DNA from: Sulfuricella sp.
GTDB lineage: Bacteria; Pseudomonadota; Gammaproteobacteria; Burkholderiales; Sulfuricellaceae
Length of the DNA stretch: 64,000 nucleotides
Assembly: GCA_023266195.1 (NCBI GenBank)
Contig: JAHFRP010000001.1
Location: 310,001-374,000 of the forward strand
Reading direction: 5' to 3'
Below are positions 4,129 through 50,622 of the stretch, in pieces (the first letter of the stretch is position 1; each line of letters begins with the position of its first letter). Below the pieces are notes generated by a model. That model worked only from the letters and a program-made list of their open reading frames with translations. It did no database searches and was not told the origin of the DNA. Made by a program: the position numbers and the translations under genes.

Positions 4129-4308
4129 TCGTTTTTACAAGTCCCCGCCCCGTGTTGCGGCCGGACGCACGGATTCCATGACGTGTGATTAAAACCCGGC
4201 TGCGCTCGGCCAATACTCGCATGGTGGTCTGGGAGGTGCCGACATGCTAAAATCGCGAAGATTTAGTATTCCCACTTCCTAAAATAAGCCTCACCGCCAA
4301 AAACACCT

Positions 4309-6873
4309 ATGGATCAATTCGCCAGGGAAACGCTCCCAGTCAGCCTCGAAGAAGAAATGCGCCGCTCCTACCTCGATTACGCCATGAGCGTGATCGTGGG
4401 CCGGGCGCTGCCCGATGTGCGCGACGGCCTCAAGCCGGTGCACCGGCGCGCGCTCTTCGCCATGCACGAGCTGTCCAACGACTGGAACAAGGCCTACAAG
4501 AAGTCGGCCCGCATCGTCGGCGACGTAATCGGTAAATACCATCCCCACGGCGATACCGCGGTGTACGACACCATCGTGCGCATGGCGCAGGATTTTTCCC
4601 TGCGCTACCCGCTGGTGGACGGCCAGGGCAACTTCGGCTCGGTCGATGGCGACAACGCCGCCGCGATGCGTTACACCGAGATCCGCATGGCGCGGATCGC
4701 GCATGAACTCTTGGCTGATCTGGACAAGGAAACGGTCGATTTCGGCCCCAACTACGACGGTTCCGAGCACGAGCCGCTGGTGTTCCCGTCGAAGATTCCC
4801 AATCTGCTGATCAACGGCAGCTCCGGCATTGCCGTCGGCATGGCGACCAACATTCCGCCGCACAACCTGAACGAGATCACGGATGCCTGCCTGATGTTGC
4901 TGGCCAATCCCGACACCGATATCGAGGAGCTGATCGACGTCGTGCCGGCGCCGGACTTCCCGACCGCGGGCATCATCTACGGCACCGTCGGCGTCAAGGA
5001 AGGCTACCGCACCGGGCGCGGCCGGGTGGTGATGCGCGCGCGCGTCCACTTCGAGGACATCGACAAGGTGGGCGGACGCCAGGCGATCATCGTGGACGAG
5101 CTGCCCTACCAGGTGAACAAGGCCAACCTGCTGATCAAGATCGGCGAGCTGGTGCGCGAAAAGAAAATCGACGGCATCTCCGACCTGCGCGACGAGTCGG
5201 ACAAGTCCGGCATGCGCATGGTGATCGAGCTGAAGCGCGGCGAAGTGCCGGAAGTGGTGCTCAACAACCTGTACAAGCAGACCCAGATGCAGGACACCTT
5301 CGGCATGAACATGGTGGCGCTGGTGGACAACCAGCCGCGCCTGCTCAATCTGAAGCAGATGCTCGACGCCTTCCTGCGCCACCGGCGCGAGGTGGTGACG
5401 CGGCGCACCGTATTCGAACTGCGCAAGGCGCGCGAACGCGGCCATATCCTGGAAGGCCTGGCGGTGGCGCTGTCCAACGTCGACGAGGTGATCGCCCTGA
5501 TCAAGGCGGCGGCCACCCCGTCGGCCGCCAAGCTGGGCCTGATGGAGCGCGTCTGGCGCTCGCCGCTGGTGGAAGAGATGCTGGCGCGCACCGCCGCCGA
5601 CGCTTCCCGCCCAGACGGGCTGGGGGCCGAATTCGGCCTGGCCGAGCAGGGCTACCGACTGTCCGATGCCCAGGCCCAGGCGATCCTGGAATTGCGCCTG
5701 CAGCGCCTGACCGGCCTGGAGCAGGACAAGATCGTGTCCGAATACCGCGAGGTGATGGAGAAGATCGTCGATCTGCTGGACATCCTGGCCAAGCCGGTGC
5801 GCATCACCGAAATCATCGTCACCGAGCTGACCGCGATCAAGGCGCAGTTCGGCGACAAGCGCCGCAGCGAAATCGTCGTGCATGCCCAGGATCTTTCCAT
5901 GGAAGACCTGATCACGCCGCAGGACATGGTGGTGACCCTGACCCACGGCGGCTACATCAAATCCCAGCCGCTGGAGGATTACTCCGCGCAGAAGCGCGGC
6001 GGGCGCGGCAAGCAGGCGACGGCGACGAAGGAAGACGACTTCATCGAGAAGCTGTTCATCGCCAATACCCACGACTACATCCTGTGCTTCTCCAACCGCG
6101 GCCAGGTCTACTGGATCAAGGTCTACGAAGTGCCGCAGGGCAGCCGCGGGGCGCGCGGCAAGCCGATCGTCAACATGCTGCAACTGGAGGAAGGCGAGAA
6201 GATCAACGCCATTCTGCCGGTCAAGGAATTCGACGACGACCATTTCATTTTCATGGCCACCGCCAGCGGCATCGTCAAGAAAACGCCGTTGTCCGATTTC
6301 TCCCGCCCGATGCGGCGCGGCATCATCGCCATCAACCTGGACGAGGACGATTACCTGGTCGGCGTCGATATCACCGACGGCAAGCACGATGTGATGCTGT
6401 TCTCCAACGGCGGCAAGGCGGTGCGCTTCGAGGAAGAGGACGTGCGCCCCACCGGCCGCGTTTCGCGCGGCGTGATCGGCATGCGCCTGGCCGAAGGGCA
6501 GAAGGTGATTTCGCTCCTGGTGGCGGAAAACGAAACCCAGTCAGTGCTCACCGCCACCGAGAACGGATACGGCAAGCGCACTTCGATCGTCGAGTACACC
6601 CGCCACGGCCGCGGCACCCAGGGCATGATCGCGATCCAGACCTCGGAGCGCAACGGCAACGTGGTGGCCGCGACGCTGGTGGAGGAAAGCGACGAAATCA
6701 TGCTGATCACCACCGGCGGCGTGCTGATCCGCACCCGCGTCCGGGAAATCCGCGAAATGGGCCGCGCCACCCAGGGCGTCACCCTGATCAACCTCGACAA
6801 GGGCGAGAAGCTGATCGGGCTGGAGCGGGTGGTGGAAGCGGATTCCGATGCGGAAGAAGAGCAACCCCAATAA
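4309..6873 (+). CDS. gyrA: DNA gyrase subunit A
   Basis: 854 residues, full length. GyrA cuts and reseals DNA in the A2B2 gyrase that introduces negative supercoils. The catalytic tyrosine is Tyr122 (AAAMRYTE). The quinolone-determining region is intact with Thr at position 83 (GDTAVYD) and Asp87; Thr83 is a normal alternative to the Ser83 of E. coli and is not by itself evidence of resistance. The C-terminal pinwheel contains the GyrA box QKRGGRG, needed for DNA wrapping, and the protein ends in an acidic tail (SDAEEEQPQ). A TAAAAT hexamer at 4248-4253 could be the -10 of its promoter, though no good -35 is visible. It heads the long serC-aro-cmk-rpsA cluster. Confidence 0.97.
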
Positions 6874-41936: not shown

Positions 41937-43229
41937 ATGGGAACATCCCGCTTGCGCGTGATGGCGCTGGACGATGACGAAGGCGATATCGAGCTGTTGC
42001 GCCGCAATCTCGAAATGCTGCCGCAGTACGACATCGAACTGGCCGCGCTGAGCCGGCCGGGCGAGTTGCTGGAGCGGATTCAAGCCGAGGAGGTGGACGT
42101 CATCCTCCTCGACTACATGCTGGGCAGGGCCACCGGGCTGGACGTGCTGCGCCAGTTGCGCGCCGCGGGAAACCTTACGCCGGTGGTGATGCTTACCGGC
42201 CAGGGCGACGAACACCTCGCCGTCGAGCTGATGCGCGCGGGCGCGACCGACTACCTGAGCAAGGCGCGGCTGTCGCCCGAAAGCCTCGGCCAGGCGCTGC
42301 GCAATGCTTTGCGCATCGGCCGGCTGGAGCGGCAGGCCGTATTGGCGGAAGAAAAACTCCGCTTGGCCGCCAAGGTATTCGACAACGCCCTCGAAGGGGT
42401 GGCGGTGACGGATGCCGATGCGAACATCCTCTCGGTCAACCCGGCGTTCACCGCCGTTACCGGCTACACCGAGGCGGAAGTGCTGGGCAAGAATCCCCGC
42501 ATGCTGGGCTCCGGCTTCCACAACCGGGAATTCTACCGGAACCTGTGGGACGAACTGCTCACCGTCGGCCAGTGGAAGGGGGAAATCTGGAACACCGCCA
42601 AGTCCGGCAACACCTTTCTGATGTGGCAGACCATTTCCGCGGTAAAGAACGACAAGGGCCGGATTACCCATTATGTTTCGGTTTTTTTCGACATCACCGA
42701 ACGCAAGAAGCATGAAGAGAACGTCCGGCACCAGGCCTACCACGACGCCCTGACCGGCCTGCCCAACCGCCGGCTGTTCCATGACCGGCTTACCATGGCG
42801 CTGCTCCAGGCGCGGCGCGAGAGGGAAATGCTGGCGGTGATGTTCCTCGACCTCGATCATTTCAAGGAAATCAACGACACCTTCGGCCATGACGGCGGCG
42901 ACCTGCTGCTGCAGGAGGTCGCCACCCGGCTGCAGAAATGCATCCGCCAGGGGGATACGCTTTCCCGCTTCGGTGGCGACGAGTTCGTCCTGCTCCTGCC
43001 CAAAATCAAATCGACACGCAATGCGGTGCTGTTCGCCGAGAAGGTGGTCAAGGCCCTCAAGATGCCGCTCGCGATGGCGGGGCGCCAGATCGGCGTCACC
43101 GCCAGCATCGGCATCAGCCTGTTCCCGAAAGACGGCGACGATCCCGGCGCGCTGGTCAAGAAGGCGGACCAAGCGATGTATTCCGCCAAGCAGAAAGGCC
43201 GCGACGATCTGCATCTGGCGGGAAATTAG
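41937..43229 (+). CDS. Diguanylate cyclase with REC and PAS domains
   Basis: 430 residues. Receiver at 5-125 with Asp59 (VILLDYMLGRATG), PAS/PAC at 140-258 (GVAVTDADANILSVNPAF), GGDEF domain at 262-428. The active site is intact: FLDLDHFKEINDTFGHDGGD and SRFGGDEFVLLLP (GGDEF at 346-350), with an I-site RQGD (337-340) for product inhibition. It should make c-di-GMP when phosphorylated, most simply by the kinase two genes upstream. It lacks an EAL domain. This intact protein contrasts with the degenerate GGDEF protein at 23.2 kb. Confidence 0.93.
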   Translation: MGTSRLRVMALDDDEGDIELLRRNLEMLPQYDIELAALSRPGELLERIQAEEVDVILLDYMLGRATGLDVLRQLRAAGNLTPVVMLTGQGDEHLAVELMRAGATDYLSKARLSPESLGQALRNALRIGRLERQAVLAEEKLRLAAKVFDNALEGVAVTDADANILSVNPAFTAVTGYTEAEVLGKNPRMLGSGFHNREFYRNLWDELLTVGQWKGEIWNTAKSGNTFLMWQTISAVKNDKGRITHYVSVFFDITERKKHEENVRHQAYHDALTGLPNRRLFHDRLTMALLQARREREMLAVMFLDLDHFKEINDTFGHDGGDLLLQEVATRLQKCIRQGDTLSRFGGDEFVLLLPKIKSTRNAVLFAEKVVKALKMPLAMAGRQIGVTASIGISLFPKDGDDPGALVKKADQAMYSAKQKGRDDLHLAGN

Positions 43230-43232
43230 GAG

Positions 43233-43285
43233 CAGGTCGGCTCAAGCGCGGCGGAGATGCTCCTTGCGGGTACAGCCCGACATGC
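43233..43285. repeat. Partial palindromic repeat, AGGTCGGCTCAAGCG family
   Basis: AGGTCGGCTCAAGCGCGGCG resembles the left arm at 6885, and CTCCTTGCGGGTACAGCC matches part of the element at 34330. It looks like a decayed copy between the cyclase gene and lolC. Confidence 0.5.
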
Positions 43286-43360
43286 ACGGCTGCGCCCTCG
43301 TCGAATGACAACCGAAAACTTAACTGGCAAACTAGCGCTTTTCCCAAGCCCAGATTCCCC

Positions 43361-44605
43361 GTGCAACCATTCGAGCTTTTTGTCGGCCTGCGCTACACCC
43401 GCGCCAAGCGGCGCAACCACTTCATTTCCTTCATCTCCCTGGTTTCCATGGCGGGCATTGCGCTGGGCGTGGCCGCGCTGATCGTGGTCCTGTCCGTGAT
43501 GAACGGTTTCCAGAAGGAGCTGCGCACTCGCATCCTGGGCGTGGCGGCGCATGTCCAGATCAGCGGCGACAACAACACCCTGGCCGCTTGGCAAGGCGTC
43601 GCGGCGCTGGCGGCGAAGCATCCCGAGGTGATCGGCACGGCGCCCTACATCACGGCGCAGGGGCTGCTGTCCAACGGCCAGACGGTGCAGGGCGCGATGG
43701 TGCAAGGCATCCTGCCGGGGCGCGAAACGGAAGTGTCGGACCTGGCCGGCAAGATGAAGGTCGGCAGCCTGGAAACCCTGCGCGCGGGCGAGTTCGGCAT
43801 CGTGCTGGGCGCCGAGCTGGCGCGCACCCTGGGCGTGTCGGCCGGCGACAAGGTGGTGGTGCTCGCGCCTCAGGGCCGAGTCACGCCGGCCGGCATCATG
43901 CCGCGAGTCAAGCAGTTCACCGTGGTGGGAATTTTCGAGGCCGGCATGTACGAATACGACGCCGGACTGGCGCTGGTCAATATCGACGACGCCGCCAAGC
44001 TCTACAGCATGGGCGACCGCGTTTCCGGCGTGCGGCTCAAGCTCAAGGACATGAACCGCGCGGCACAGGTGGCGCGCGAATTGTCCGCGAGCTTCGGCGA
44101 CGATATCACCATCAGCGACTGGACGCGCCAGCACGCCAACTTCTTCCGCGCCATCCAGATCGAGAAGAACGTGATGTTCATCATCCTGCTCCTGATCGTG
44201 GCGGTGGCGGCGTTCAACATCGTTTCCACCCTGGTCATGGCGGTCACCGACAAGCAGGCCGACATCGCCATCCTGCGCACGCTGGGCGCATCGCCGGCCA
44301 GCATCATGAAAATATTCATCGTCCAGGGCACCCTGATCGGCGTCATCGGCACGCTGATCGGCGTAGTCGGCGGCGTCCTGCTGGCGCTCAACATCGACGT
44401 GGTGGTCCCGGCCATCGAACGCGTGTTCGGCGTGCATTTCCTGGCCAAGGACGTGTACTACATCAGCGAGCTGCCATCCGACCTGCAAAGCGGGGATGTG
44501 ACCGTGATTGCGGCGGTGTCGTTCGTGCTCACCCTGCTGGCGACGCTCTACCCGAGCTGGCGAGCGTCCAGGACCAACCCGGCGGAGGCGCTGAGATATG
44601 AGTGA
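43361..44605 (+). CDS. lolC: Lipoprotein-releasing permease LolC/LolE
   Basis: 414 residues. It is the permease of the LolCDE ABC machine that extracts outer-membrane lipoproteins from the inner membrane. The N-terminal FVGLRYTRAKRRNHFISFIS and first helix MAGIALGVAALIVVLSVMNG, a large periplasmic domain and three C-terminal helices (AFNIVSTLVMAVTDKQADIA, then ILRTLGASPASIMKIFI) are standard. GTG 43361 is the start. Only one permease gene is present, the usual single LolC/E form of many betaproteobacteria. Its last eight bases overlap the start of the inserted methylase gene instead of lolD. Confidence 0.93.
   Translation: MQPFELFVGLRYTRAKRRNHFISFISLVSMAGIALGVAALIVVLSVMNGFQKELRTRILGVAAHVQISGDNNTLAAWQGVAALAAKHPEVIGTAPYITAQGLLSNGQTVQGAMVQGILPGRETEVSDLAGKMKVGSLETLRAGEFGIVLGAELARTLGVSAGDKVVVLAPQGRVTPAGIMPRVKQFTVVGIFEAGMYEYDAGLALVNIDDAAKLYSMGDRVSGVRLKLKDMNRAAQVARELSASFGDDITISDWTRQHANFFRAIQIEKNVMFIILLLIVAVAAFNIVSTLVMAVTDKQADIAILRTLGASPASIMKIFIVQGTLIGVIGTLIGVVGGVLLALNIDVVVPAIERVFGVHFLAKDVYYISELPSDLQSGDVTVIAAVSFVLTLLATLYPSWRASRTNPAEALRYE
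44579..44605 (+). repeat. 27-bp direct repeat, left copy (lolC/methylase junction)
   Basis: CCGGCGGAGGCGCTGAGATA followed by TGAGTGA; identical to 47118-47144. It contains the last codons of lolC with its TGA and an overlapping ATG that now starts the methylase gene. Sequences outside the 27 bp differ on both sides. Confidence 0.95.
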
Positions 44606-46175
44606 GAAGCCGGGTGAGGGGGTGGGGGCGCGGCGTGGTGGGGTTTCGCCTCGCCCCTCGTGCCTCGCTCCCCACGAACCCGCGCGACTTTGCCAACCGC
44701 GAATCGAGACTGCTCGCCTTGAGGCGTCAGCTCGACTTGGTCCCGGCAGGCAGGCGGATTACGGTCAGTTCATGACACCCCGCAGTACTGCGGACTTCAT
44801 GGCGGGACTTTTTGATCTGTCCGGTTGCTCATCCATCCGGCTTCTCGATGCCGGCGCCGGGGTCGGCTCGCTGACCGTCGCCTTTCTGGAAGCGGTGAGA
44901 AAATCCAAACAGCGGTTATCCGACGTCTCGGCCACGCTGTATGAGGTAGACGATCTACTGGCATCTTATCTTTCCAGGGAAATCGAGGCATGTCGGAAGC
45001 CGTTTTCGGATGCGGGGATAAAGTTCGATGCCAATATAATTCGGGACGATTTTATTGAAAGCGCGGTTAATCAAATCCAGTTCGGCATGGCGAAAAGATT
45101 TAACTTCGCCATCCTCAATCCTCCATACAAGAAAATTGCCAGCCGTTCGCGCCATCGGCTTTTATTGCGCCAAGCCGGCATCGAGACCGTCAATCTGTAT
45201 TCCGCCTTTGTCGCGCTGGCCGTGGCGCTGATGGAGCCCGGCGGCCAGCTTGTCGCCATCATTCCCCGCAGCTTTTGCAACGGCCCCTATTACCGGCCAT
45301 TCCGCGAGTTCATTCTTACGCGTGCGGCAATCCGGCACATGCACCTGTTTGCTTCGCGCGACAAGGCCTTCAAGGATGATAAGGTGTTGCAGGAAAACGT
45401 CATTATTCTGCTCGAACGCGGTGGCAATCAGGGGGATGTGACGGTATCCACCTCGGTCGATGACCGATTTGCCGACTACGCGGCCCACGTTTATCCTTTC
45501 GATCGAATCGTCTTTCCCAGTGACGCCGAGGGTTTCATTCACATCCCGACTTCGTCGGCGCGCAACATCATGGAGTCTTCCCCGCCTTTTCGCTACTCGC
45601 TCGCGGATATCGGCATAGAGGTATCCACCGGCCCGGTCGTCGATTTCCGCTTACGAGCGTATGTGCGCAGCATGCCGGAGCCGGGGAGCGTTCCCCTGCT
45701 TTATCCCGCGCACTTTACCGGACTATCCATCGAATGGCCGAAGCCGGAGATAAAGAAACCCAACGCACTGATGCGCTACCCGGAAACCGACAAGTGGCTG
45801 TACCCAAATGGCTTCTATGCCGTGGTGCGGCGCTTCTCGTCCAAAGAGGAAAGGCGCCGTATCGTGGCGGCCGTGGTTTGCCCGGAGATGTTCGACAAGC
45901 CGCTGTTGGGTTTCGAAAACCACCTGAATGTTTTCCATCAATGCAAAAGCGGCTTGCCGGAAGACCTGGCGCGTGGCTTGGCGGTGTTCCTGAATTCCAC
46001 TGTGGTGGACGAAAGTTTCCGTCGATTCAGCGGGCATACCCAGGTCAATGCCACCGACTTGCGGCTGATGAAATACCCTAGCCGCGATGCGCTGACCGCG
46101 CTGGGCCGCTGGGCCAGGGAGCAGGGCGAACTGTCGCTGGAGCGGATAGATGTAAAACTGGAAAGCATCGCATGA
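44598..46175 (+). CDS. Type II DNA adenine-N6 methyltransferase, PstI/BsuBI family
   Basis: 525 residues. SAM motif I is LLDAGAGVGSLTVAFLE (about 82-98) and the catalytic motif IV is ILNPPYKK (NPPY at 174-177), the N6-adenine type. YGQFMTPRSTADFMAGLF precedes motif I as in the Eco57I/BsuBI-like enzymes, and the C-terminal part is the target-recognition region. Paired with a PstI/BsuBI-type nuclease it should protect CTGCAG; that site is inferred. The first 30 residues are not family-like: they come from a copy of the lolD start followed by GC-rich repeat-like DNA. It overlaps lolC by 8 nt and the nuclease gene by 4 nt. Base composition is less GC-rich than neighbours. Confidence 0.9.
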   Translation: MSEKPGEGVGARRGGVSPRPSCLAPHEPARLCQPRIETARLEASARLGPGRQADYGQFMTPRSTADFMAGLFDLSGCSSIRLLDAGAGVGSLTVAFLEAVRKSKQRLSDVSATLYEVDDLLASYLSREIEACRKPFSDAGIKFDANIIRDDFIESAVNQIQFGMAKRFNFAILNPPYKKIASRSRHRLLLRQAGIETVNLYSAFVALAVALMEPGGQLVAIIPRSFCNGPYYRPFREFILTRAAIRHMHLFASRDKAFKDDKVLQENVIILLERGGNQGDVTVSTSVDDRFADYAAHVYPFDRIVFPSDAEGFIHIPTSSARNIMESSPPFRYSLADIGIEVSTGPVVDFRLRAYVRSMPEPGSVPLLYPAHFTGLSIEWPKPEIKKPNALMRYPETDKWLYPNGFYAVVRRFSSKEERRRIVAAVVCPEMFDKPLLGFENHLNVFHQCKSGLPEDLARGLAVFLNSTVVDESFRRFSGHTQVNATDLRLMKYPSRDALTALGRWAREQGELSLERIDVKLESIA

Positions 46176-47140
46176 GCCGCCACAAGAACATCGATTCCGC
46201 GCTGGAGATTCTCATTGCACTCGGTTTCCCGCGTGCGCAGCAAAACGAGCGTTCCGCACTTTGCCTGCTGGCCCTGGTGAATCTGACGCCTGGTAAATCC
46301 TGGCGGCAAGCCGATAACCCGCTGATCGGCATCACGCCGATGATGGAATTCAGCCGTGACCGCTATGGCGCGGTTTACAAGCCAAATACGCGGGAGACGT
46401 TCCGCCGCCAGACGGTACACCAGTTTGTCGCCGCCGGGTTGGCGATTCCCAATCCGGACAAGCCGTCGCGTCCCGTCAACAGCCCGCAGTTCGTCTATCG
46501 GATAGAACCTGAGGCTCTCGCCTTGCTGCGGACGTTCGGCACCAAGGCATGGGTGAAGCAACTGGCAGCCTATCTTTCGACCCGCCAAACGCTGATCGCC
46601 AAGTATGCCAAAGAGCGGGATTCGAACCAAGTTCCGGTCACGATTGCGCCCGGCGCCGAAATTCAATTGAGTCCCGGCAAACACAGCGAACTGATCAAGG
46701 CGATTGTCGAAAGTTTCGGTACGCGTTTCGTACCGGGCGGTGTCTTGATCTATGCCGGGGATACCGGCGACAAGTGGGGCTATTTCGATGTGGATTTGCT
46801 GGCCCGTTTGGGAGTGACCGTCAATTTCCACGGCAAGATGCCCGATGTGGTGATTTATAGCCCGGACCGGAATTGGTTGATATTGGTCGAGTCCGTTACC
46901 AGTCACGGACCCGTTGACGGCAAACGTCATGATGAACCGGCCCGGCTGTTTGCCGCTTCCACCGCGGGCCTGGTTTATGTGACGGCGTTTCCCTCCCGCG
47001 GGCTGATGGCTCGTTACCTCGGCGAAATTGCCTGGGAAACCGAGGTGTGGGTCGCAGAAGCGCCATCCCATCTCATTCATTTCAATGGAGAAAGATTCCT
47101 TGGACCCTATGAGGGCTCCGGCGGAGGCGCTGAGATATGA
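46172..47140 (+). CDS. Type II restriction endonuclease, PstI/BsuBI family
   Basis: 322 residues. The C-terminal catalytic domain reads [21 protein letters not shown], then [20 protein letters not shown] and [12 protein letters not shown], with PD (224-225) and Glu240 as likely metal ligands of the PD-(D/E)xK-type site; this is the BsuBI/PstI pattern. The N-terminal half is the usual helical domain ([20 protein letters not shown]). It should cut CTGCAG when unmethylated, an inference from family. The last residues (GSGGGAEI) are read from the right copy of the 27-bp repeat in a different frame from lolC. It overlaps the methylase by 4 nt and lolD by 4 nt. Confidence 0.9.
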
Positions 47141-47144
47141 GTGA
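47118..47144 (+). repeat. 27-bp direct repeat, right copy (nuclease/lolD junction)
   Basis: Exact copy of 44579-44605. It supplies the end and stop of the nuclease gene and the ATG of lolD, so the original lolC/lolD overlap is reproduced on the far side of the inserted pair. Confidence 0.95.
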
Positions 47145-47916
47145 TGAATCAGGAGTGAGGAGCGAGGAGATGGGAGTGAGGAGTGAGGTCAACAGCGGTG
47201 CGGCGGGAGTTTTTACTCCTCGCTCCTCACACTTCACTCCTGACACCCCCGTCCTTTCCTGCACCAATCTCTGCAAAACCTTCCGCCAGGGCAAGGTCGA
47301 AGTCCCCGTCCTGGTCGGCGTCGATTTCGAGATCGCGCAGGGCGAGCGGGTGGCCATCGTCGGCGCCTCCGGTTCCGGCAAAAGCACGCTGCTGCACTTG
47401 CTGGGTGGGCTGGATGCGGCCACTTCCGGCGAGGTCGCCATCATGGGCCGCAATGTCCGGGATCTGGGCGAGGCCGAGCGCAGCCGGCTACGCAACGAAA
47501 GCCTCGGCTTCGTCTACCAGTTTCACCACCTGCTGCCGGAATTCTCCGCGTTGGAAAACGTCGCCATGCCGCTCCTGATCCGCCGCATGAAGCGGCAAGA
47601 CGCCTATGCGGCGGCGACGGAAATGCTCAAGCAGGTCGGCCTGGGCCACCGCCTGTCCCACACGCCGGGCGAGCTGTCCGGCGGCGAACGCCAGCGCGCC
47701 GCCGTGGCGCGCGCCCTGGTGACGCGCCCAGCCTGCGTCCTGGCCGACGAGCCGACCGGCAACCTCGACCGCCACACCGCCGAGGGCGTGTTCGACCTGA
47801 TGCTGGAGCTCAACCGGGAGTTGGGCACCAGCTTCGTCATCGTCACCCACGACCCGGAACTGGCGGCCAGAACCCAGCGCGTATTGCATCTGGTGGATGG
47901 GATTTTAAGCTTGTAG
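47137..47916 (+). CDS. lolD: Lipoprotein-releasing ATPase LolD
   Basis: 259 residues. ATPase of LolCDE. Walker [11 protein letters not shown]-loop region [18 protein letters not shown], signature LSGGERQR and Walker [12 protein letters not shown] are intact, as is the switch His in VIVTHDPEL. The conserved protein begins around residue 40 ([20 protein letters not shown]). Residues 1-38 are unusual and encoded by a palindromic repeat; translation may start at ATG 47137 or at the in-frame ATG 47170. The last codons and TAG stop fall in another palindrome. It remains coupled to the upstream gene by an ATGA overlap, but that gene is now a restriction nuclease. Confidence 0.93.
47149..47243. repeat. 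Palindromic repeat inside the 5' end of lolD
   Basis: TCAGGAGTGAGGAGCGAGGA (from 47149) pairs with CTCCTCGCTCCTCAC...TTCACTCCTGA (47215-47243), interrupted by a 7-nt insertion. It encodes about residues 5-36 of LolD and would form a hairpin close to the start codon. Confidence 0.75.
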
Positions 47917-47982
47917 CTTGTAGCTGGTAGCCCGTAGCTTGTAGCTCCCAGCTACCCGCTACAAGCTACAAGCTACCAGCTT
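47907..47982. repeat. Palindromic repeat, AAGCTTGTAGCTTGTAGCTGG
   Basis: Arms 47907-47931 and 47951-47982 pair over about 25 bp. The left arm contains the final Ser-Leu codons and TAG stop of lolD. First of three palindromes in the 363-bp lolD-comEC gap. Confidence 0.8.
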
Positions 47983-48015
47983 TCCAACCAACAAGCCCCC
48001 ATCGATGCGGAGATG

Positions 48016-48087
48016 CGTAGGATGCGGTGAAGAATGAACCGCATCGTTCGCGATTGATGCGGTTCGCCTGGCTCACCGCATCCTACG
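48016..48087. repeat. Palindromic repeat, CGTAGGATGCGGTGA family
   Basis: Arms CGTAGGATGCGGTGA (48016-48030) and TCACCGCATCCTACG (48073-48087) match perfectly, with an inner pair AACCGCATC/GATGCGGTT. Second palindrome of the lolD-comEC gap. Confidence 0.85.
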
Positions 48088-48099
48088 TCTGGTTGGGTT

Positions 48100-48165
48100 C
48101 GTAGGTCGGCACCCCGTTCCCGTCGGTTCAATGGGATTTGTTGGGCACGGGGTGCCCAACCTACG
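48100..48165. repeat. Palindromic repeat, CGTAGGTCGGCACCCCG family
   Basis: Arms CGTAGGTCGGCACCCCG (48100-48116) and CGGGGTGCCCAACCTACG (48148-48165) pair with one or two mismatches. Third palindrome of the gap; its outer end is shared with the element at 6885. Confidence 0.8.
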
Positions 48166-48201
48166 CCACTGCTGGCGTGGAGCGCGCAGATTGGAGAAAC
48201 G

Positions 48202-48229
48202 AAGCCTCCGGAAAATTGGAGGCTTTGTC
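48202..48229 (+). terminator. Terminator between lolD and comEC
   Basis: Stem AAGCCTCC / GGAGGCTT with loop GGAAAATT followed by TTGT. A TATGAT hexamer at 48245-48250 just beyond could be the -10 of a comEC promoter, though the -35 is poor. Confidence 0.65.
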
Positions 48230-48279
48230 GTTTATATTTTGCGGTATGATGATGGCATTGCATTCGCTTGGGCCATTTT

Positions 48280-50622
48280 GTGCGCAGCAACATTCTCGCC
48301 TTCGTCATCGGCATCTGGCTGCTGCAACAGCAGGCGGCGCTGCCCAATCTCGCCGGGGCCGGCCTGCTGCCGCTGGCGTGGCTGCTGAGCCGATCTCTTC
48401 CCGCTCTGCCGCGTGAGGGAGCGGCCAAAATCCTTTTCCTGGGACTGGGTTTCTTCTGGGCCGCGATCATGGCCCAGTTGCGCCTGGCCGATGCTTTGCC
48501 GCCCGCCTGGGAAGGGCGCGATATCCAGCTCGTCGGCGTGGTGTCCAGCTTGCCCGTCGCCAATGAGCGCGGCACGCGTTTCGAGTTCGATGTCGAGCGC
48601 GTCAAAAACCTCAACGCCGTGGTGCCGCACCACATCCAGCTCAGCGCTTACAACAACGGTTTCGGCAAGAAGGCGGCCGCAGCCGCTCCAGCCGAATATC
48701 ACGCCGGCGAACGCTGGCAACTGACGGTGCGGCTCAAGCGCCCGCACGGCAACGCCAATCCGCATGGTTTCGATTACGAAGCATGGTTGCTGGAGCGCAA
48801 CATCCGCGCCACCGGTTACGTCTACCAGGACACAGGCAACCGCCGCCTGGCGGAGCGGGTCTACCAACCCGGCTATATGGTTGAAATGCTGCGCGAGAAG
48901 GCGGCGCAGCGCCTCCAGGCCGTGCTGGGCGAGCGGCCCTATCTCGGCGTGCTCAAGGCGCTGGCGGTGGGCGAGCAGAACGCGATTTCGCCGGACCAGT
49001 GGCGGGTGTTCCTGCGTACCGGCGTCAATCATCTGGTCAGCATCAGCGGCGTCCATGTCACCATGATCGCCGGCCTCGGCTTCGCGCTGGTGTATGGCTT
49101 GTGGCGGCGCAGTCCGGCGCTGGCCCTGCGCCTGCCGGCGCGCAAGGCCGCCGTGGTGGCGGGTGCGCTGACGGCGCTGGGCTACGCGCTGCTGGCGGGC
49201 TACAGCGTGCCGACCCAGCGCACCCTGTACATGCTGTCGGTGGTGGCCGCGGCGTTGTGGCTTGGGCGCGCCGGTTCCGCCTCGACGGTGCTGGCGCTCG
49301 CCTTGCTGGCGGTGGCCGTGGCCGATCCGTGGGCGGTGTTCGAGCCCGGTTTCTGGCTGTCGTTCGGCGCGGTGGGGGTGATCATGTATGTCGGCGTGGG
49401 CCGCATCGGCCGGCCCCATTGGTTGCGCGAATGGGCCAGCGTGCAGTGGGCGGTCACGCTCGGGCTGGTGCCTGCCCTGCTGCTGATGTTCCAGCAGGTC
49501 TCCCTGGTTTCGCCGCTCGCCAATGCCTTCGCCATCCCCGCCATCAGCCTGGTGGTCACGCCCCTGACCCTGGCCGGGACTGTGCTGCCGCTGGATTTTT
49601 TGTTGCTGCTGGCGCATCAGGCGATGGCGTGGTGCATGGCCGCGCTGGAATGGCTGAGCCGGCTGCCGGACGCGGTGTGGCAGCAGCACGCGCCGCCGGT
49701 GTGGACGGTGCTGGCGGCCGGATTCGGCATCCTCTGGCTATTGCTGCCGCGCGGCTTTCCGGCGCGCTGGCTGGGGGCGGCGGGATTGGCGCCGATGTTC
49801 CTGGTCGTGCCGCCGCCACCCGGCCCGGGCGAATTGCGGCTCGCCGTGCTGGACGTGGGGCAAGGGCTGGCGGTGGTGGTGCAGACCCGCAGCCATGCAC
49901 TCCTGTTCGACACCGGGCCGGGCTTCACCGCCGACGCCGATAGCGGCAGCCGCATCGTGGTGCCCTATCTGCGCGCGGCCGGCATCAAGCGCCTCGACGG
50001 CCTTATCGTCAGCCACGACGACAGCGACCACAGCGGCGGCGCGATTTCCGTGCTGGACGCGGTGCCGGTCGGCTGGCTCGCTTCCTCGCTGCCCGCCGCC
50101 AGTTCGATCGCGCCCCACGCCCGCCAGGCGTTGCGCTGCTTCGCCGGGCAAGCCTGGGACTGGGACGGGGTGCGCTTCGAAGTCCTGCACCCCGCCTGGG
50201 AAAGCTATGCCGACGAACGCCTCAAAAACAATGCGCGCGGCTGCACGCTCAAAATCACCTCGCCCTATGGCAGCGCGCTGTTGCCGGCCGACATCGAGAA
50301 GGAATCCGAGGCGGAGATCCTGGCGCGCCGCCCCGGCGCCTTGCCCGCCAACCTGCTGGTGGCGCCGCACCACGGCAGCAAGACGTCTTCCACCGAAGAT
50401 TTTATCCGTCAGGTCGATCCCGAAATTGTCGTTTTCACCGCCGGCTACCGCAACCGCTTCGGCCACCCCAGGCCGGAAGTGGTGGCGCGCTACCGCGCGC
50501 TGGGCAGCCGGCTTTACCGCTCAGACCGGGATGGTGCCGTATTGCTGGATTTTGGGCCGGGCGGGAAGGAGCTGCAAACCTGGCGCGAGGAACATTTGCG
50601 CTACTGGCAAAGTCAGAATTAA
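48280..50622 (+). CDS. comEC: DNA uptake channel protein ComEC
   Basis: 780 residues. ComEC is the inner-membrane channel that takes in single-stranded DNA during natural transformation. An N-terminal membrane part with an OB-like loop (IQLVGVVSSLPVANERGTRF), a central multi-helix competence domain (HLVSISGVHVTMIAGLGFAL) and a C-terminal metallo-beta-lactamase-fold domain are in order. The latter has VSHDDSDHSGGA and APHHGSKTSS, with metal-binding residues present, so it may degrade the non-entering strand. GTG 48280 is preferred to TTG 48268 because the family begins near VRSNILAFVIG. It is followed closely by relA. Confidence 0.92.
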   Translation: MRSNILAFVIGIWLLQQQAALPNLAGAGLLPLAWLLSRSLPALPREGAAKILFLGLGFFWAAIMAQLRLADALPPAWEGRDIQLVGVVSSLPVANERGTRFEFDVERVKNLNAVVPHHIQLSAYNNGFGKKAAAAAPAEYHAGERWQLTVRLKRPHGNANPHGFDYEAWLLERNIRATGYVYQDTGNRRLAERVYQPGYMVEMLREKAAQRLQAVLGERPYLGVLKALAVGEQNAISPDQWRVFLRTGVNHLVSISGVHVTMIAGLGFALVYGLWRRSPALALRLPARKAAVVAGALTALGYALLAGYSVPTQRTLYMLSVVAAALWLGRAGSASTVLALALLAVAVADPWAVFEPGFWLSFGAVGVIMYVGVGRIGRPHWLREWASVQWAVTLGLVPALLLMFQQVSLVSPLANAFAIPAISLVVTPLTLAGTVLPLDFLLLLAHQAMAWCMAALEWLSRLPDAVWQQHAPPVWTVLAAGFGILWLLLPRGFPARWLGAAGLAPMFLVVPPPPGPGELRLAVLDVGQGLAVVVQTRSHALLFDTGPGFTADADSGSRIVVPYLRAAGIKRLDGLIVSHDDSDHSGGAISVLDAVPVGWLASSLPAASSIAPHARQALRCFAGQAWDWDGVRFEVLHPAWESYADERLKNNARGCTLKITSPYGSALLPADIEKESEAEILARRPGALPANLLVAPHHGSKTSSTEDFIRQVDPEIVVFTAGYRNRFGHPRPEVVARYRALGSRLYRSDRDGAVLLDFGPGGKELQTWREEHLRYWQSQN

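Follow-up and report, generated by a model that had tools for sequence, protein, structure and literature searches.

A restriction-modification (R-M) gene pair of the BsuBI/PstI family lies between lolC and lolD in a 64,000-nucleotide stretch of a Sulfuricella sp. genome (contig JAHFRP010000001.1, positions 310,001 to 374,000; hereafter the window). We refer to the genome of the window as G000, to the methylase gene and its protein as M, and to the nuclease gene and its protein as R. We put the probability at roughly three in four (0.77) that the pair inserted into the overlap of lolC and lolD with duplication of its target, and that M borrowed its start codon and R its stop codon from the duplicated host sequence. 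This kind of insertion is known; the exact fit with borrowed start and end signals is new to us.

Two copies of a direct repeat, matching perfectly over 27 bp, sit at the two ends of the inserted pair (Table 1). The repeat unit is the end of lolC, with a Shine-Dalgarno sequence, a start codon, and a stop codon, and the identical 27 bases end two genes in two frames and begin two genes. Read in the frame of R, the repeat encodes GGGAEI followed by a stop, which are the last 6 residues of the nuclease. The GGAGG motif stands 9 nt before the ATG of both M and lolD, and each of these starts overlaps the stop codon of the preceding gene. When the flanks are joined in silico at the repeat, the 8-nt lolC/lolD overlap is regenerated. 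A first-pass annotation of the window, which proposed an insertion at this junction, did not mention the repeat, although the interval that it marked (44579..47144) ends exactly on it.

For 74 family copies, we compared the upstream end with the downstream end, scoring each comparison by local alignment. These copies consist of the window, a second copy in G000, four from the genomes of relatives, and 68 fetched loci; 10 copies with a short flank or a missing end were left out, and 5 duplicate fetches were dropped. The null was made of 1500 mismatched upstream/downstream pairings and has a maximum score of 15; the longest word shared in 300 pairings is 12. Four of the 74 copies score above this maximum: L085 (106), G006 (28), the window (27), and G009 (26). 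L129 equals the null maximum, and the score of L044 means little, since its end was taken from a broken R. G006 and G009 carry the insertion seen in the window, with identical junctions in lolC and R, and their ends align over 55 and 77 bp, extending into the lolD linker. The GGAGG-to-ATG stretch is also duplicated in G009. A general rule by which the family lands with target duplication is not supported; apart from L085, the null maximum is topped by just three of the four lolCD copies.

Comparison with the family indicates where the ends of the pair depart from its relatives. An in-frame, family-type start codon 20 to 31 amino acids before the GQF motif of M is retained in 68 of 71 copies outside lolCD, but in none of the four lolCD copies, where the only in-frame ATG, GTG, or TTG codons lie 47 to 56 amino acids before GQF. 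Similarly, the tail of R after GPY is 9 residues long in all four lolCD copies; of the 77 other copies, 73 have tails of 0 to 5 residues and four have tails of 7 to 9. From these start positions and tail lengths, it seems that the native start of M and the native stop of R were lost and that the duplicated host signals are used instead.

The sequence behind the lolD start is a hairpin linker that encodes an N-terminal extension of LolD of ~37 amino acids and folds well (z of -3.33, with 0 of 200 shuffles as good). The first ~30 residues of M have no counterpart in the family and are similar to this lolD-side linker. The folding signal of the corresponding stretch of M is weak on its own (z of -1.82, with 11 of 200 shuffles as good), and the linker copy at the M N terminus is clearer in G006, G009, and G007 than in the window. 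The GTGAGGA heptamer hairpin is dispersed in G000, with 19 pattern hits in 13 places (47141-47244 and 12 others, L230-L248); the reversed pattern, used as a control, gave 18 hits, the heptamer being nearly identical when read backwards. By eye, these hairpins occupy mainly gene junctions, and some code for N-terminal extensions. In other genera, this lolD start holds different heptamers (TCAGCCA, GGGATTC). A second heptamer palindrome, AGCTTGT/AGCTACA, lies immediately 3' of lolD at 47907-47982.

Table 1. Coordinates in the window of the genes, repeat copies, and linkers at the lolC-lolD junction
Feature	Position	Strand	Match or content
lolC (lolC/E-type permease)	43361..44605	+	TIGR02212 equivalog; stop codon 44603-44605
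M, Eco57I-type adenine methylase, 525 aa	44598..46175	+	Pfam Eco57I 1.8e-11; PADLOC MTase_II 654.8 bits
R, BsuBI/PstI-family type II restriction endonuclease, 322 aa	46172..47140	+	Pfam
lolD ATPase	47137..47916	+	TIGR02211 equivalog; match begins at residue 39
Direct repeat, copy 1	44579..44605	+	last 27 nt of lolC: GGAGG, 9 nt, then ATG of M
Direct repeat, copy 2	47118..47144	+	R stop (TATGA), plus GGAGG and ATG of lolD
Probable diverged copy of GTGAGG-type hairpin linker, now coding M N terminus	44606..44690 (end approximate)	+
Hairpin linker within lolD	47141..47244	+	GAGTGAG-like heptamers

The open reading frame (ORF) coordinates and the sequence place lolC, M, R, and lolD consecutively on the plus strand with successive overlaps of 8, 4, and 4 nt, and coordinates and family matches both agree with the first-pass description of this layout. 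The lolC product scores 524.8 bits against TIGR02212 (NCBIfam equivalog cut-off, 362.45) and the lolD product 337.7 bits against TIGR02211 (cut-off, 307.75). The GTG start of lolC was picked by family match and is internal to a longer mechanical ORF. Both domains of R are matched in Pfam (BsuBI_PstI_RE, 1e-58; BsuBI_PstI_RE_N, 1e-50), and its closest solved structure is SdaI (2ixs, 1.3e-71). The two nuclease domains and the Eco57I-type adenine methylase partner are features shared with the BsuBI/PstI family. M directly precedes R in the aligned relatives, and the 4-nt M/R overlap, present in 74 of 84 family copies, is not peculiar to the lolCD insertion. M and R fill the interval between the repeats: six other frames of at least 85 amino acids gave no Pfam match, and no transposase or integrase was recognized among M, R, and these frames.

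The lolCD operon is taken to be essential, as it is in Escherichia coli. A weak scan of 43200-48300 found one promoter-like site, on the minus strand, where 1.5 were expected by chance. From the general behavior of overlapping genes, we infer that lolC, M, R, and lolD are cotranscribed and translationally coupled. The first-pass annotation had claimed coupling on both sides of the pair; what stands of this claim is the layout of the sequence, namely, the spacing of GGAGG and the stop overlaps at the starts of M and lolD, as coupling would require.

To place the pair among relatives, R was searched for in 61 genomes, 59 of which have a lolC ortholog, and 30 lolC loci were read. R is matched in 8 of the 61 genomes and adjoins lolC in four (G000, G006, G007, and G009), which belong to one genus of the Sulfuricellaceae (Betaproteobacteria). 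A LolD Walker A motif lies 109 to 208 nt past lolC in 26 of the 30 loci; the other four are the occupied genomes. Within this genus of 12 genomes, 4 are occupied and 6 are empty (G002, G003, G005, G008, G010, and G011), and neither lolC nor lolD was found in G001 and G004. All six readable empty sites of the genus carry a single copy of the repeat unit, with lolC running into lolD, and linkers of the GTGAGG kind are present at the empty site in G002, G005, and G011. The comparison with empty sites that the first-pass annotation proposed therefore supports its view of an insertion at this junction, and the pair is not a fixture of lolC/lolD throughout the order. Its further claim, of a pair that could hardly be lost, is not supported: the pair could leave via the repeat without harm to lolCD. 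In silico, exact excision at the 27-bp repeat keeps both lolC and lolD whole. Of the 10 genus members whose site could be read, 6 are empty, and in G007 a cassette close to that of a different species lies between flanks that belong to the G007 clade (a chimera is possible).

The history of the cassette was followed in trees and pairwise comparisons. In an rpoB tree, which is unrooted, has no outgroup, and was built without G003, G000 groups with G001, next to G006 and G009 (support 61), and G007 falls with G002, G004, G005, G010, and G011. In 120-column bins, lolC of G007 is 90 to 99% identical to that of the empty G002 and 75 to 96% identical to that of G006; the M-R tract of G007 is 88 to 99% identical to that of G006. 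Synonymous divergence (dS) between G006 and G007 is 0.14 for M, 0.24 for R, and 0.50 for lolC, and between G006 and G009 it is 0.11, 0.16, and 0.22, respectively. The G007 mosaic reads as movement of the cassette into the same site of this genome, unless the contig is chimeric, and, with that caveat attached, it disfavors a history of vertical descent only. The lolCD group has a support of 1.0 in a tree built from 69 M+R sequences, where its sister is a pair located between sdhD and sdhA (0.952).

The ratio of nonsynonymous to synonymous divergence (dN/dS) is 0.12 to 0.20 for M and 0.06 to 0.11 for R in six of six pairs; by this measure, purifying selection acts on M as well as on R. Among strongly conserved columns, the window deviates at 1 of 134 in R and 1 of 139 in M. 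M and R are likely to be active enzymes, because dN/dS is low and the conserved columns are nearly intact. SdaI recognizes an 8-bp site, and CTGCAG or CCTGCAGG are candidate target sites for the pair. Depletion of CTGCAG favors neither activity nor specificity, because the two occupied genomes (G006, 0.72; G000, 0.54, a value confounded by another BsuBI/PstI-family pair) and the three empty genomes (G003, 0.64; G005 and G010, 0.79) are not separated. In a side observation, CTCGAG (0.11), GTCGAC (0.24), and CCCGGG (0.23) are strongly depleted in the G000 stretches L190-L209 plus the window, and CTCGAG is also low (0.32 to 0.46) in four other genomes counted, which hints at other restriction systems. 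The second pair in G000 (L046 4848-7297, equivalent to G000:C26:108847-111296) has an R that is 70% identical. It adjoins a Staphylococcal-nuclease-like gene, and its downstream frame resembles those in L082, L092, and L100. The R search did not find a second R in G006.

We propose that the pair entered the overlap of lolC and lolD in an ancestor of some members of the genus. Duplication of the target would have covered the end of lolC together with the ribosome-binding site and the start codon of lolD, a length of 27 nt in the window; as two relatives suggest, the hairpin linker that follows would have been copied as well. One target copy would have remained with lolC and the other with lolD, so that both host genes would be whole. 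The inserted stretch seemingly kept neither the start codon of M nor the stop codon of R. M would instead start at a lolD-type ATG, gaining a linker-like N-terminal tail, and R would end at the TGA within copy 2 of the lolC tail, which would account for the observed overlap of all four frames. Ribosomes completing one gene could then start the next, from lolC to M, R, and lolD, and the order of M before R with a 4-nt overlap, as in most of the family, would let the protective enzyme be made first. The cassette may pass between species by recombination in the flanking genes.

Several observations weigh against insertion with target duplication and borrowed signals. The duplication in the window is clear over 27 bp only; the linker copies have diverged, and the longer duplication rests on G006 and G009. 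A perfect repeat in the window, set against diverged copies in relatives, requires later gene conversion or a separate event. The ends of the G007 copy, which occupies the lolCD site, score 13, inside the null. Three of the four occupied genomes (G006, G009, and G007) are metagenome bins, and the G007 copy, whose contig is 7.4 kb long and whose bin shows 6% contamination, may be chimeric. Further, resolution at the base of the genus tree is weak, with that support of 61, and the family comparison was built on 80 of the 160 relatives found. Position 256 of R is Pro, in contrast to Leu in 73 of 74 aligned copies. CTGCAG avoidance gives no clear sign of activity, the empty G003 being more depleted than the occupied G006.

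The likeness of the two ends could instead be that of a dispersed repeat, had a donor flanked by dispersed GTGAGG-type hairpins recombined at the lolD linker. The dispersal of the heptamer in G000 (subject to its reversed control), the linkers of the same kind at three empty sites, and the linker-like tail of M are what such an entry would leave. However, the repeat includes 19 nt of lolC 5' of the ATG, outside the hairpin, and the GGAGG-to-ATG stretch is duplicated in G009 too; hairpin recombination alone would not copy the lolC end, and we consider this route unlikely. The orthology of the pair in four genomes with identical junctions would also suit an old fixed gene order, in which the pair was native to the lol operon of the order and sporadically lost. 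Given the absence of R from 53 of the 61 genomes, its place beside lolC in a single genus, the 26 empty loci, and a sister lineage at sdhD/sdhA, we find such an order scarcely credible. Within the genus only, an ancestral gain may have been followed by several losses. Lastly, the pair could be an inactive, decaying passenger, its frames open only because a frameshift would disturb lolD. Polarity on lolD could indeed hold the frames open, the Pro at position 256 of R is in keeping with decay, and broken R copies occur elsewhere, in G055 and G046. Frame-keeping does not explain a dN/dS far below 1 for both genes in all six comparisons, and conserved-column deviations are limited to one per protein, making this a quite improbable account.

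The sister pair between sdhD and sdhA (G019 and G021) is, like the lolCD pair, inside an operon, in this case one of central metabolism, with R ending 4 to 5 nt before sdhA, but its M has a family-type start and is spaced from sdhD. No further target duplication was found at sdhD/sdhA, the flanking ends being no more alike than the null. Elsewhere, sdhD runs into sdhA in G000, G010, G014, G017, G018, and G055, and other, shorter sequence lies between the two genes in G006, G012, G015, and G016. As a separate observation, the junctions L151 (G012), L152 (G016), and L157 (G006) carry an insert of ~110 bp that starts near GTGAGCAGG and holds a GGGGCCCCGC hairpin. The insert is preceded by a similar but diverged copy of the 5' end of sdhA; in G012 there are two units, 144 bp apart. 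A 24-base pattern from this insert has a close match in 11 of 41 genomes (reversed control, 0), in four of which pairs lie 110 to 111 bp apart. An Rfam search of five loci, these inserts included, gave no match.

Other members of the family are found in varied settings. The pair at L085, from a Gallionella metagenome-assembled genome, is likewise flanked by a direct repeat, of 133 bp (1521-1653 and 4209-4341), that contains a host-gene end; this second case of target duplication within the family is located elsewhere, beside a MOSC-domain gene. Unlike the lolCD copies, it has an M with a start codon of the family type, and its genes were not seen to share a start/stop overlap with their neighbors. 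In G055, the copy whose R is broken has as its neighbors genes for a succinyl-CoA ligase and an NAD synthase, one on each side. In contrast to the lolCD copies, others of the BsuBI/PstI family are on plasmids, between other genes, or beside what are presumably resolvase-like genes. R relatives occur in 137 plasmid records (37 at 60 to 80% identity), and related copies occur in 3 phage records. Automatic naming of flanking genes by longest frame proved unreliable; nine flanking proteins were checked against Pfam, and eight matched.

R-M gene insertion with long target duplication was reportedly described by Nobusato et al. in 2000 and Furuta et al. in 2010. The lolCD pair resembles such insertions in that it lies between direct repeats whose unit occurs once in relatives, and no transposase was recognized between them; the repeat is also longer than the duplication usual for transposons. 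It differs in that the duplicated unit is the stop/start overlap of an operon taken to be essential, an overlap that would supply the start of M and the stop of R. Genome comparison has suggested that R-M systems of all types can insert with long, variable target duplications, and operons are listed among the locations of R-M genes (PMC3031569). A search limited to open-licence papers brought up no R-M system at a lolC/lolD junction, judged by titles and the starts of abstracts.

R-M genes are regarded as mobile and selfish, yet, in our judgement, their settlement in a chromosome without a transposase or damage is poorly documented. In this case, an insertion can be traced at the level of single bases, from the copied stretch through the apparently lost signals and the borrowed ones to the operon left whole. 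We suggest, tentatively and at less than even odds, that the M-R pair has been pared down to its coding bodies, without start and stop codons of its own, and depends on an essential operon for its start/stop overlap, with the conserved lolC and lolD serving as a shared docking site for ordinary recombination between species. If this is true, a selfish pair would be settling in essential operons, lolCD in one genus and sdhDA in the next, without a mobility gene. The finding makes testable both the safe expression of a toxic pair from a foreign operon and the use of essential genes as sites of landing and transfer.

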